From: Halobacteriales archaeon QS_3_64_16
Lineage (GTDB): Archaea; Halobacteriota; Halobacteria; Halobacteriales; Halococcaceae
Length of the DNA stretch: 64,000 bases
Assembly: GCA_003021705.1 (NCBI GenBank)
Contig: PXRJ01000001.1
Location: 62,001 to 126,000 of the forward strand
Direction: 5' to 3'
The translations under genes and the position numbers were made by a program. Of the stretch, positions 2,655-8,341 are shown in pieces. Positions within the stretch are counted from its first letter, which is position 1; every line of letters begins with the position of its first letter. The notes beneath the pieces were generated by a model. It was not told where the DNA came from and searched no databases. It saw only the letters and a program-made list of their open reading frames with translations.

Positions 2655-3209
2655 TCACTCCTCGGGCTGCCAGCCGACGAACGGGCCTTCGAGGGGCACC
2701 GCGAGGGCGTCTAACGCGCGGGCGGTCGCTACGTAGTGGCTACAGAGCATCGCGACGCCGGTCAGGGTACTCGTCTCACAGAACTCCGCGAGACCGTCGT
2801 GGATCGTATCGGTGACCTCGCCACGGGCGAAGGCGTCGGCGTAGGCGAGCAGTGCCCGATCCCGATCGTCGAACCCATCGCAGTTCTCGAAGTTCTCGTC
2901 CGCACCGCGGCCGATAGCGGCGATCTCCTCGTCCGTGAGGCCGGCCTCGCGGCCGATGTCGACGTGTTGGTGCCACTCGTACTCGGAGTCCAGTGCGCGG
3001 GCGACCGCGAGGATCAGGAGTTCGCGCTCGCGGGTCGTGAGTTCGCCGGCCTCCCAGAGGGTCGTGCCGTAGCGCATATAGGACTGCAGAACAGGGGGAG
3101 CGTTCCCGATCGCCCGGAAGACGTTGCGCTCGCCGAGGGCGTCCTCGCCGAGTAGGTACTGGTACTCTTCGGGGAAAGCCTCGCGATCGACGAGCGGGAC
3201 GCGTGCCAT
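2655..3209 (-). CDS. Carboxymuconolactone decarboxylase (CMD) family protein
   Basis: The 184-residue all-helical protein has the CMD core: the segment from ERELLILAVARALDSEYEW through QHVDIGREAGLTDEEI, then DRDRALLAYADA. There is no CxxC of the AhpD peroxidase type, so alkylhydroperoxidase activity is unlikely. I use the internal ATG giving MARVPLVDREAFP. A longer upstream extension is possible on paper but is basic, unlike haloarchaeal proteins, and overlaps the divergent CoA-transferase start. Members of this family often sit in catabolic clusters; the reaction here is unknown. The gene converges on the acyl-CoA synthetase gene. Confidence 0.85.
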   Translation of the reverse strand: MARVPLVDREAFPEEYQYLLGEDALGERNVFRAIGNAPPVLQSYMRYGTTLWEAGELTTRERELLILAVARALDSEYEWHQHVDIGREAGLTDEEIAAIGRGADENFENCDGFDDRDRALLAYADAFARGEVTDTIHDGLAEFCETSTLTGVAMLCSHYVATARALDALAVPLEGPFVGWQPEE

Positions 3210-3381
3210 ACCATCGTTGGAAGCGAGACCGACAAAAGCGTATCTCCGCTCGAACCCTTCGACTGCTTCGGTCCCGGCTCCATCCAGATCGGTCCGCGCC
3301 GCCGATCTCGGTACCCTACCTCGGCGTTCCGGGAGCGACGATCGGGGCAACTTCTTTGTCGGTGTCCGCGGACTGGGAGGT

Positions 3382-4662
3382 ATGCAACCGTTCGAAGGCG
3401 TGGACGTCCTCGATCTCACCCAGTCGATCGCCGGTCCCTTCTCTGCCCAGTGGCTCGGCGCGTTGGGCGCTACGGTGATCAAAGTCGAGCCGCCGGGCGG
3501 CGACGCCTTCCGGGATCTGCTCGACGGCGCGATGTTCGCCTCGGTGAACTTAGGCGGCAAGGAGAGCGTCTGTCTCGATTTCACCACCGAGGAGGGACTA
3601 ACCGCCGCGAGAGACCTCGCCGAGCGCGCCGACGTGATCGTCGAGAGCTTCCGGCCCGGGGTACTCGATCGCTTCGGGCTCGATTACGGGTCGGTATCGG
3701 CGACCAACGAGGACGTGATCTACTGTTCGGTCTCGGGGTTCGGGGCGGACGGCCCCCGGGCGGACTGGCCGGCGTACGACCCGGTCGTACAGGCGATGAG
3801 CGGGCTGATGTCGACCATCGGCTACCGGGATCGCCCGCCGGTCAGAGTCGGCGCGAGCGTCATCGATTACTGTACGGGGACGACCGCCGCCCTCGCGATG
3901 ACGGCTGCACTGCTTGAACGCCGACGAACGGGCGAGGGCGAACGCATCGATTGCAGCCTCTTCGAGGTGGCGGTCTCCTGGATGGGCTACTGGATCGCCC
4001 ACTACACCGGTACCGGCGAAATCCCCGAACGCTCCGGCCAGGGATTTGCCGGACTCGCCCCGAACGAAGTGTTCCACGCCGGCGGGAAGCGGAGAGAGAA
4101 GAGCGGGAGCGGCGGGAACGAAGGTGAAAGAGAGGAGGAAGGAAAGAGAGACAACGGAGGTGATGGCAGCGACGAGGACGAGGGAGAACCGTTCTACATG
4201 GCGGTAGTGAACGACCGACTGTATGCCAAGCTCTGTGAGGCGCTCGACCGCGAGGACCTCGCGACCGACGACCGGTTCGCCGACAACGCGAGTCGATGGG
4301 AGAATCGAGAGGCACTCCGGGAGGAACTCGGCGCGGAGTTCGCGACCTACGATCGCGAGGGGCTAACGACCCTGCTCGCCGAAGCGGGCGTGCCGGCCGG
4401 CCCGCTCCGGACGGTCGACGAACTCGTCGAGGACGACCCCCAGGTCGGTGCCCGGGAGTTGCTCACCGACTCGCACAACGTCGAGACCGACAGCCCAGTA
4501 CGGACTGCAAGGTTGCCCTTCCGGACGAGCGATGGCCGACCGACGCTGGGCGAGCGGCCGCCGACCCGCGGCGAGCACACCCGCCGCGTACTACGGGAGT
4601 TGGGCTACGACGACGACCGGATCGACCGGATGCTCGCTGCAGGTGCCGCCGGAGAGGGGTGA
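3382..4662 (+). CDS. CaiB/BaiF (family III) CoA-transferase with a purine-rich insert
   Basis: The 426-residue protein starts MQPFEGVDVLDLTQSIAGPF, typical of family III CoA-transferases that move CoA between carboxylic acids. Asp162 in VIDYCTGTTA matches the catalytic Asp of formyl-CoA transferase. ALLERRRTGEGERIDCSLFE and the C-terminal TRGEHTRRVLRELGYDD are also family-typical. Residues about 235-268 (nt 4084-4185) are a Lys/Glu/Gly/Asp-rich insert encoded by almost pure purine DNA, placed between NEVFHAGG and EPFYMAVVNDRL, which are normally close together. The frame stays open. The ATG at 3382 fits the family start; an upstream extension in the same frame is not homologous. Confidence 0.9.
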   Translation: MQPFEGVDVLDLTQSIAGPFSAQWLGALGATVIKVEPPGGDAFRDLLDGAMFASVNLGGKESVCLDFTTEEGLTAARDLAERADVIVESFRPGVLDRFGLDYGSVSATNEDVIYCSVSGFGADGPRADWPAYDPVVQAMSGLMSTIGYRDRPPVRVGASVIDYCTGTTAALAMTAALLERRRTGEGERIDCSLFEVAVSWMGYWIAHYTGTGEIPERSGQGFAGLAPNEVFHAGGKRREKSGSGGNEGEREEEGKRDNGGDGSDEDEGEPFYMAVVNDRLYAKLCEALDREDLATDDRFADNASRWENREALREELGAEFATYDREGLTTLLAEAGVPAGPLRTVDELVEDDPQVGARELLTDSHNVETDSPVRTARLPFRTSDGRPTLGERPPTRGEHTRRVLRELGYDDDRIDRMLAAGAAGEG

Positions 4663-4720
4663 TTTCTCGTTCGGGCTCCGGTCGAGCCAACGCCGATGCC
4701 GGCTCGTCGCTTCGAGCGTC

Positions 4721-5828
4721 TCAGCGACCGTCGAAGGCGGGCTCGCGCCCGTCGAGAAAGGTGCTCATCGCCTCGGACTGATCGGCGGTGTCGAAGCAGG
4801 CGGCGATGTCGGTGCGAGCCCCCTCGATACCGGTTTCGACGCCGAGCGAGCGCCAGGCGCGAAACACCTCCTTCTGCCGACGGAGTATCAGCGGGCTCTT
4901 GGCCGCGAGCCGATCGGCGCGTCGAACACCACGCGTTCGCTCGCGTACTCGCTCGCTATCTCGATCGCGGCCTGGCCCAGTCCGACCGCGTTGGCCGCGA
5001 GAGAGATGCGTTCGGCGTTCGCGAAGGCCATCAGATACCGAAAGCCCGCACCCTCCTTGCCGATCCGGTCCGCGTCGGGAATCGAAAAGTCTCGAACCAA
5101 ACCTCGTTCGAGTCGGCGGCCCCTCGTCCGGCCTTCGGGGTCTCGCTGACCTCAATGCCATCCCGGTCGGCGTCGAAGGCGGTGGAAAAACAGCGAGAGG
5201 CCATCGAAGCGACTGCTCCCGCTCTCGCCTCCTTCCCCGCGCGGGCCGGTCCGAGCGAGTAGCATGATTACGTCGGCCTCTTGTGCCTTCGAGGTCCTGA
5301 TCTTCTGACCGTTCACGACGTACTCTCCGTCGTCTTCGCCGTTCTCGTCCTCGCCGTCTTCGTCGGCCTTTCCCCTCCCTCCACCAGCACCCGACACGCG
5401 CTCGGCCGTCGGCTCGGTGCGGGAGGTATCGAGCCCGAAGTTGGGTTCGGTGACACCAGTACAGACCATCACCTCGCCGCTCGCGATATTAGAGAGATAT
5501 CATTCCTTGTGGGCTTCGGAACCGAACTCGACGAGCGGCGCAGCGCTGAAGACGTGATGGGAAGTGATCGACGTCCCCGCCATCGCCGCGCCGGAACAGG
5601 CGATCTCCTGCTGGACGATCGAGGTCTCCTGGACGCCGTAGCCCTCGCCGCCGAACTCCTGGGGTTTGTCACACCACACCACCTGCCATCGGCGAAAGCC
5701 TCGAAAAGCTCCCAGTCGAACTCGTGATTCCGGTCCTTCTCGCGCCAGTACGCGTCGCCGAAATCGTTACAGAGGTCGCGGGGCCGCCGGCGGATGAGAC
5801 GCTGTTCTTCCATGAGCGCCAAGTCCAT
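4721..5828 (-). pseudogene. Acyl-CoA dehydrogenase remnant fused to the tail of an enoyl-CoA hydratase
   Basis: Reading the reverse strand, MDLALMEEQRLIRR is followed in shifting frames by acyl-CoA dehydrogenase blocks: CDKPQEFGGEGYG, GTSITSHHVFSAAPL, MVCTGVTEPNFG, YVVNGQKIRTSKAQEADV and FRYLMAFANAERISLAANAVG. Frameshifts lie near 5680, 5180 and 5095, and a TGA at 5502-5500 replaces a probable CGA (Arg). At about 4910 the homology changes: after FDAPIG comes LAAKSPLILRRQKEVF, then AACFDTADQSEAMSTFLDG, which is the C-terminal end of a crotonase-family protein. The dehydrogenase C-terminal domain is absent. A deletion joining two neighbouring genes, followed by further decay, explains this best. 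Confidence 0.85.
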
Positions 5829-5986
5829 GTCGGAGACTGTCACGGGAGCGAGCAAAGTCGTTTCGCCGACAGAGGGTCGTCGATCGACTCGCTCGGAATC
5901 ACACTACACGCGATCGCTTTGACCTCGGTCGCCCGCGGGCGCTTCGGGGTCAACGGTTATGACTCGGGCGCGTGTCCTCCGCGTCG

Positions 5987-6928
5987 ATGGCACTGACGAG
6001 CACGCCCGAAGAGCGCTTCGCGGACCTGCCGGAGTACGACTACGAACCGCAGTACGTCGACGTCGGCGAACCCGAAATGGCCTACGTCGACGTCGGCGAT
6101 CCGGACGCCGAGGAGACCTTCCTCTGTCTGCACGGCGAGCCGACCTGGGGGTATCTCTACCGGAAGACCATCCCGACCCTCCGAGAGGAAGGCCGCGTGG
6201 TCGTTCCCGATTTCGTCGGGTTCGGCCGCTCCGAGAAGTACACCGAGCGCGAGAAGTACACCTACGAGATGCATTATAGCTCGCTGGTCGCTTTCGTCAA
6301 GACCCTCGACCTGGAGAACATAACCCTCGTCTGTCAGGACTGGGACGGCATTCTCGGACTACCCGTCGCGGTCAACGAGCCCGAACGCTTCGCCCGTCTC
6401 GTCCCGATGAACACGGGCGTTCCGAGCGGAACTCAGGAAATGCCCGAGGCCTGGGAGGAGTTCCGAGCGTTCGTCGAGCGCGCCGACGAACTGCCGATCG
6501 GCATGCTGATCCAGAACGCCACGGCGACCGAACTGAGCGAGGAGACGCTCGCGGCCTACGAAGCGCCGTTCCCGAGCGAGGAACACAAAGCCGGTGCCCG
6601 GGTCGCGAGGCGGTTTCACCGCCTCGAATGTCGCAGTGCGTAGCGCCGCGCTTGGCCCGACATGGTGCCCCGGGAGGGCGGCGGCGACGGCGCGGCGGTA
6701 ACGCGAGCGGCTGCCGAACGCCTCGCCGAGTGGGAGAAACCGGCGTTCGTTCTCTTCGCCGACGCCGATCCGATCACGAGCCCTAATCGCGACCCGCTGC
6801 GCGAACTGATTCCCACGGCGAGCGAGCAACCCGACACCTGGATCGAGGGCGCGATGCACTTCCTCCAGGAGGACGCCGGCGAGGAGATCGCCCAGCAAAT
6901 CGTCGAGTTCGTTCGCCGGACGCGCTAA
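5987..6928 (+). pseudogene. Haloalkane dehalogenase (DhlA-like) interrupted by a 48-nt insertion
   Basis: The alpha/beta-hydrolase sequence closely follows DhlA-type haloalkane dehalogenases: LCLHGEPTWGYLYRK with the oxyanion region, nucleophile Asp in VCQDWDG, cap-domain residues, and the catalytic-His block EGAMHFLQEDAGEE at the end. After HKAGAR, 48 nt (6602-6649) are inserted in frame, and they include a TAG stop (6641-6643). Without them the protein would read AGAR-AWPDMVPREGG and continue in frame to the stop at 6926-6928, about 298 residues. Every catalytic residue is otherwise present, so the insertion may be recent. The start is taken at MALTSTPEER; a GTG five codons upstream is possible. 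Confidence 0.85.
6602..6649. repeat. 48-nt palindromic in-frame insertion in the dehalogenase gene
   Basis: The insert carries a perfect hairpin, CGAGGCGG - TTTCA - CCGCCTCG (about 6606-6626), plus about 23 nt ending near TAGCGCCGC. Its borders are inferred because deleting exactly 48 nt restores an uninterrupted dehalogenase reading frame. The length is a multiple of three, but the insert contains an in-frame TAG. No transposase is nearby. It could be a small palindromic (REP- or MITE-like) element; only this one copy was noticed in the window. Confidence 0.65.
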
Positions 6929-7564: not shown

Positions 7565-8341
7565 ATGGATCTCGGACTCGAGGACCGGACCGCGCTCGTG
7601 ACGGGCGGGGGCGGTCGGATCGGTAGCGAGGACTGTCGCGTGTTCGCCGAAGAAGGCGCGGCGGTCGTGGTACTTGACGTCGATCGGGAGGCCGCCGAGA
7701 GCGTCGCCAAGGGGATCGAGGGCGACGGCGGGAGCGCACGGGCGGTCGAATGTGACCTGACCGATCGGGAGGACGTCGGCGCGACGATCGAAGCACTGCG
7801 CGAAGAGACGGGCGGCATCGACGTCTTGGTGAACAACGCGGCGATGGTCGACGCCCGTGCACGCCTGCAGGACTACAGTGATGAGATCTGGGATCGGGAC
7901 ATCGCGATCAACCTGACTGGCACGTACAATATCACCAGAGAGGTGTTCCCCGCGATGTGCGATCGGGGCTGGGGTCGGGTGATCTCGATGAGTTCGATGG
8001 CCGGCTGGCAGGGCGGGTTCGGTCAGGCGTCCTACGCCGCGACGAAGGCGGCGCTGATCGGGTTCGGGAAGACCCTCGCGCTCGAAGGCGCTCAACAGGG
8101 CGTGACCTCGAATATCATCACGCCGAACATCGTCGTCGAGCAGTTCGCCGATATGTCGATCGAGGAACTCGAAGAAGTCGATTCGTACTTCGCTCGAATC
8201 GCGAAGGCCACGCCGATGCGCCAGTTGGGTCGGGAGGTAGACGTAGCGAACACCGTCGCCTTTCTCGCGAGCGAGCAGGCGAGCTACGTCACCGGCCAGG
8301 TACTCGGTGTCACCGGCGGCGTGGACCTGTTCAGCTTCTGA
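7565..8341 (+). CDS. SDR family NAD(P)-dependent oxidoreductase
   Basis: The 258-residue classical short-chain dehydrogenase has a Gly-rich nucleotide loop (TGGGGRIGS, residues about 13-21), an acidic residue after beta-2 (VLDVDREAA) that favours NAD, the NNAAM motif, catalytic Ser in ISMSSMAG and the YxxxK pair in SYAATKAAL. It probably oxidises or reduces a hydroxy- or ketoacyl substrate, perhaps in the same CoA-ester pathway as MaoC. The C-terminus GVTGGVDLFSF is normal. No lesion is seen. Confidence 0.9.
   Translation: MDLGLEDRTALVTGGGGRIGSEDCRVFAEEGAAVVVLDVDREAAESVAKGIEGDGGSARAVECDLTDREDVGATIEALREETGGIDVLVNNAAMVDARARLQDYSDEIWDRDIAINLTGTYNITREVFPAMCDRGWGRVISMSSMAGWQGGFGQASYAATKAALIGFGKTLALEGAQQGVTSNIITPNIVVEQFADMSIEELEEVDSYFARIAKATPMRQLGREVDVANTVAFLASEQASYVTGQVLGVTGGVDLFSF

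Follow-up and report, generated by a model that had tools for sequence, protein, structure and literature searches.

Short palindromic repeats lying inside genes have been known since the RPEs. REPs are imperfect palindromes of 20-40 nt that occur in many intergenic copies, assemble into mosaic clusters and sometimes lie within genes; those of the CGTC class have no dedicated transposase (PMC3733652). Intragenic palindromic repeats have been described in Rickettsia (RPE) and in an archaeon, Methanocaldococcus jannaschii (PMC2229807). The PATEs and SMRs of Haloquadratum are free of a transposase; PATEs include a 52-bp form, and SMR-A elements insert into the palindromes of other elements (PMC3119063). 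Mitochondrial double-hairpin elements and GC clusters are short GC-rich hairpins that are scattered, merge and are sometimes intragenic (PMC2800124, PMC4478555).

The case described here comes from Halobacteriales archaeon QS_3_64_16 (GCA_003021705.1; labelled G000), a haloarchaeon whose draft genome spans 2.83 Mb on 70 contigs and is 79% complete. The window, that is, the whole stretch of DNA analysed, comprises 64,000 nt (PXRJ01000001.1:62001-126000, or C1:62001-126000 in our labels). On its plus strand a haloalkane dehalogenase gene (5987-6928) is split by a segment of 48 nt:

5987..6643, plus strand: 5' portion of the split haloalkane dehalogenase gene, up to a TAG (6641-6643) supplied by the insert; from the open reading frame and its translation
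6602..6649, plus strand: inserted 48-nt two-hairpin cassette, missing in 17 of 17 readable homologues, with joined flanks that give an open dehalogenase frame
6650..6928, plus strand: 3' part of the dehalogenase in unchanged frame, with two presumed catalytic residues, the acid Asp (6767-6769) and His (6857-6859)
6599..6602, plus strand: left arm CGGG of a short palindrome around the insertion site, already present in orthologues, e.g., G011 GCGCGGGAGTGGCCCGACATGG
6656..6659, plus strand: right arm CCCG of the same palindrome, pre-existing in orthologue DNA

The first part of the gene matches the haloalkane dehalogenase family NF002043 of NCBIfam (E 5e-77) and also Abhydrolase_1 of Pfam. The insert reads GTCGCGAGGCGGTTTCACCGCCTCGAATGTCGCAGTGCGTAGCGCCGC, and its border slides by one base, so that 6602-6649 is equivalent to 6603-6650. 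As a multiple of three it leaves the frame unshifted, and when it is omitted ...EEHKAGAR joins AWPDMVP... in a frame that is open from 5987 to 6928, exactly as the original prediction had stated for a removal of 48 nt; the in-frame TAG that it placed within the insert was likewise found. The catalytic roles are presumed from knowledge of the family, with the nucleophile Asp at codon 6338-6340, the acid Asp at 6767-6769 and the His at 6857-6859. All three residues are there, in keeping with the claim of a complete catalytic set, but the nucleophile motif is QDWDG where close haloarchaeal orthologues have QDWGG, a change that may matter for this enzyme. Judged from the reading frame, the insert is predicted to truncate the dehalogenase before the presumed catalytic acid and histidine.

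Among 99 related genomes, 19 (own included) have a dehalogenase orthologue, and seven more distant homologues were added. At the DNA level, the site is uninterrupted in every one of the 17 homologues that can be read there (10 haloarchaeal and 7 others), and the 48-nt segment was therefore gained in the lineage of the window. Identity to the window gene among the haloarchaeal homologues is 82% (same family) and 80% (same genus). In uninterrupted homologues KAGAR continues directly, for example KAGAREWPDMVP; the closest empty sites are GCGCGGGAGTGGCCCGACATGG in G011 and GCGCGCGAGTGGCCCGATATGG in G002, and the window has GCCCGGG-(insert)-CTTGGCCCGACATGG. The in-frame insertion at 6602-6649 and the empty orthologous sites, both put forward in the original prediction, are thereby established. 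Comparison with orthologue DNA reveals no target-site duplication around the insert; the GCCCG words beside it were considered as one and rejected, as they are already part of the orthologue coding sequence.

Relaxed selection prior to the insertion was also rejected. On its own branch the gene accumulated 16 synonymous and 7 non-synonymous changes before the site and 10 and 6 after it, which resembles the sister branches of G002 (26/12 before, 11/3 after) and G011 (27/13 before, 11/5 after). The dehalogenase was thus under normal constraint until recently, in agreement with the earlier view that it was not lost by point decay. The neighbouring acyl-CoA dehydrogenase gene (4700-5855, minus strand) is disrupted by several frame changes and stops, which points to a pseudogene or to sequence errors in this part of the draft. 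Low-complexity acidic, glycine-rich inserts are present in a CaiB-like gene (3124-4662) and in the acyl-CoA dehydrogenase remnant (about 5310-5370, minus strand).

The insert had been described as containing one perfect hairpin of 8 bp. The hairpin is real, with a stem of 9 bp if a T-A pair is counted, but a second hairpin and an outer stem are conserved in the alignment of the copies, and the single-hairpin reading was rejected:

6606..6626, no strand assigned: hairpin 1, CGAGGCGG-TTTCA-CCGCCTCG; three exact copies in the genome, present with up to two mismatches in 46 of 196 relatives, and folds
6632..6650, no strand assigned: hairpin 2, degenerate CGCGGCGC-nnn-GCGCCGCG with left arm CGCAGTGC; from an alignment with 11 other copies and the structure-model alignment
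6591..6665, plus strand: region found by structure model R1 with 48.4 bits (window E 1.1e-8, whole-genome E 4.8e-7)

The conserved unit runs from an outer arm through hairpin 1, an AA spacer and hairpin 2 (CGCGGCGC..GCGCCGCG) to the second outer arm. In the window copy the left arm of hairpin 2 is mutated, with several positions off the consensus. Model R1, which comprises the outer stem and both hairpins, was built from eight other copies with the window copy excluded, and 12 of 21 relatives also contain matches to it. Five of the nine pairs of the outer stem have changed on both sides, none of 500 shuffles reached the covariation score for the structure as a whole (slid controls score much lower), and in copy L054 two adjacent pairs are swapped with compensation. 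A three-way junction of -33.9 kcal/mol (z -4.3 as DNA) is the fold of a typical unit. A known structured RNA family was rejected, since Rfam searches at four loci gave no match above the gathering score.

The cassette is not confined to the dehalogenase. The 21-mer CGAGGCGGTTTCACCGCCTCG has three exact matches in the 2.83-Mb genome, against none for a reversed-pattern control, and the three copies are alike over about 56 nt at 82-86%, so that chance likeness does not account for the insert. Exact identity of the window insert to other copies spans only about 25 nt, and a donor identical over the full 48 nt was not found in these comparisons. The 48-nt segment is very probably an inserted dispersed repeat, and further copies turned up both in the genome and in its relatives, where the original prediction had suggested looking for them. 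The two copies examined in context (L009, L010) are intergenic, and the cassette belongs to a dispersed haloarchaeal repeat family whose normal place is between genes, inside the apex of a palindrome.

The surroundings of these copies are composite. L009, L010, L099 and L142 (on contigs C20, C66 and C42 of the same genome) are arrays between genes in which several different hairpin modules form a mosaic, and in sister species single modules of about 60-120 bp turn up again at dozens of sites. A companion motif similar to TTTTTAGTCCAGATTTTTGCGAG adjoins hairpin arrays in many genomes (L068, L076, L098 and other array flanks).

The palindrome around the cassette was searched as TGCTCRCGGGC-N-GCCCGYTCGCA in 21 genomes, with loops of up to 30 nt and then of 31-61 nt. 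The shorter loops gave 131 matches, of which 130 are 'empty' at 24-31 nt in total and one measures 44 nt; the longer loops gave 10, all 73-75 nt and all 'filled' with the two-hairpin cassette. No other lengths up to 83 nt occur among the 21 genomes. The empty form reaches 56 copies in a single genome. This sharp bimodality indicates that the host palindrome is a REP-like repeat and the cassette an optional insert in its apex, a nesting that the earlier single-hairpin view had missed. The genome of the window itself carries one empty and several filled palindromes in the same array context: at C66:41672 the outer stem is closed by a GGA loop, in surroundings shared with filled copies. For 30 cassettes, the bases outside show a mean complementarity of 5.6 bp, with at least 4 bp in 26 of the 30, compared with 2.7 bp for distant flanks. 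The sequence of these arms varies (ACGGGC, GCGGGC, ACGGCGC, ACGGCGGC).

Throughout the genomes searched, a tandem TC/TC mismatch (GA/GA on the opposite strand) is retained in the outer stem, placed between TGC/GCA and RCGGGC/GCCCGY. It was part of the search pattern and is seen in a free alignment of copies as well; its conservation suggests a recognised structural feature. At L172 (G012 C144), an apparent orthologue of the short-chain dehydrogenase of the window (7565-8341) adjoins an array of empty palindromes.

Presence/absence differences also occur between relatives. Between the near relatives G143 and G085 there are two clean two-hairpin indels, of 58 bp and 65 bp; no others of this type were seen in a bulk comparison in which most indels are unstructured, and gaining or losing hairpins is thus not the most frequent kind of change. 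A unit of about 105 bp, which contains a filled palindrome and one more hairpin, is present in G009 and missing at the same locus of G012, where the upstream flank is about 93% identical. The direction of change is polarised as a gain for the dehalogenase insert; the G143/G085 and G009/G012 differences are presence/absence only.

The site within the gene bears a likeness to the usual target, as the CGGG..CCCG found there in relatives resembles the apex of the host palindrome. A palindrome apex as such is a weak candidate for a special target, because any 4-bp palindrome apex takes in 13% of window positions; only the CGGG..GCCCG resemblance is informative, apices of the form CGGG N0-6 GCCCG making up 0.09% of the window, and the preference is read from one intragenic site at which the likeness was spotted post hoc. 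Templated copying from an array donor is favoured because the CGGG..GCCCG arms are shared and no duplication is present. The cassette would have been copied from an intergenic donor rather than cut and pasted, while the DNA was single-stranded: the gene arms CGGG..GGCCCG would pair with the CGGGC..GCCCG stem around the donor cassette, and the polymerase would then switch template across it. Taken as a whole, a recent insertion of the dispersed cassette into an otherwise normal gene is the probable explanation; templated copying from an intergenic donor, by arm pairing followed by a template switch, is offered more tentatively as the particular route. The other remaining choice is an unrecognised structure-specific enzyme, and a single intragenic event does not separate the two. 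A dedicated enzyme of this kind, which would act on extruded palindromes and place the cassette in their apex, fits the strict division into empty and filled host palindromes, the complementary arms of variable sequence that nearly always flank the cassettes and the clean borders free of duplication. We regard it as rather unlikely, since no candidate protein was identified, ordinary conversion between arrays could have spread most filled palindromes and only one target outside the arrays is known. Some unrelated, unrecognised enzyme could also move the cassette. A more general scheme, in which a parasitic or recombinogenic two-hairpin cassette of haloarchaea enters the apices of extruded palindromes by shape and a few arm bases and not by target sequence, spreads with no known transposase and now and then disrupts genes that carry a CGGG..CCCG apex, is speculative and somewhat unlikely as formulated.

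The subterminal hairpins, tiny size and lack of a target duplication also recall PATEs and REPs, and would suit a non-autonomous transposon moved in trans by a Y1 transposase of the IS200/IS605 or RAYT type. A 52-bp PATE consisting only of the termini seems mobile in Haloquadratum (PMC3119063), and four cassette-bearing genomes (G009, G011, G019, G020) do contain Y1 genes. Against this, PF01797 has no match in G000-G004 or G007, all of which carry cassettes, and a Y1 (IS200/RAYT) transposase was not found in the four genomes of the genus itself. All four are incomplete drafts, and at 79% completeness the draft that holds the window could have missed the gene, although the three sister-species drafts are also without one. 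Conversely, a single weak cassette match was obtained in Y1-rich G012 (eight Y1 matches), and none in G022 and G025, which are also rich in Y1 genes. Around 29 TnpB loci (PF07282; about 1.5 kb around each, 92 kb in total), detected in six of the seven genomes searched, there was no host stem, no two-hairpin unit and no hairpin 2, and a single locus had one match resembling hairpin 1, a variant with two mismatches. The PF01797 and PF07282 locus tests lend support neither to the RAYT model nor to an IS605/PATE origin, and mobilisation in trans is distinctly unlikely. With no IS200/RAYT-type transposase alongside the cassette, templated copying is at least as likely as enzymatic mobilisation. The original prediction, that a palindromic element of very small size had been mobilised and had left clean borders, is upheld by the repeat copies and the empty orthologues; the mobilisation need not have involved an enzyme. 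A repeat-induced misjoin in the assembly might be suspected in a draft of 70 contigs, the more so as the frame changes in the adjacent acyl-CoA dehydrogenase could mean local sequence errors; it is very improbable, given that the same gene continues in the same frame on both sides of the insert, that the array neighbours of the cassette are absent where a donor flank would be expected, and that exact identity to other copies is so short and the dehalogenase free of frameshifts. Hairpins can also be created by local template switching, as described in PMC8794818, so that the structure might have formed in place by quasipalindrome template switching or duplication and owe its likeness to GC-rich convergence. 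This is hardly credible, because hairpin 1, the AA spacer and hairpin 2 match dozens of copies in order and spacing, and the zero count of the reversed-pattern control and the structure-model match contradict it.

The dehalogenase insertion bears on how tiny palindromic units can spread without a transposase. The case combines an empty site that is clean, a donor family that can be recognised, a host palindrome that is both empty and filled in the same genomes, and a genus where the usual candidate enzyme did not turn up. These features make template switching and structure-specific insertion distinguishable by test in cultivable haloarchaea. Searches of the open-access literature by exact sequence and by topic found no description of this cassette family; for haloarchaeal REP-like repeats they returned only the Haloquadratum PATE/SMR work and a general REP survey. 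Intragenic palindromic repeats are already known, and the haloarchaeal two-hairpin form is new with respect to the open-access literature.

Bacterial REPs and BIMEs (GTAG, CGTC) are similar in being short imperfect palindromes that are dispersed, clustered and occasionally intragenic. The host palindrome is such a dispersed palindrome of 20-40 nt, whereas the cassette itself is not. The present system differs in being archaeal, in having a separate two-hairpin cassette nested in the apex and in that no RAYT was found in its own genus; the ends of the consensus TCTGCTCRCGGGC..GCCCGYTCGCANG carry neither a GTAG nor a CGTC tag. RPEs and the M. jannaschii repeats are likewise palindromic repeats inserted within protein genes. 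RPEs, however, measure 105-146 bp and are tolerated in an open frame, whereas this unit of about 48 nt does not keep the frame of its host open and adds a stop codon (TAG 6641-6643).

The mitochondrial double-hairpin elements, compared by build and not by sequence, resemble the cassette in having two consecutive GC-rich hairpins; for the cassette, presence/absence differences between relatives were seen. The mitochondrial elements are organellar, and in yeast the GC clusters are accompanied by short putative target duplications. The insert does not combine terminal inverted repeats with a target-site duplication, as a MITE would. In having neither, it agrees with PATEs, and PATEs and SMRs are also haloarchaeal, transposase-free and without target duplication. 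SMR-A elements differ in their length of about 110 bp and their terminal inverted repeats, and PATE palindromes match IS605 ends, whereas the palindromes of the cassette do not match the TnpB loci.
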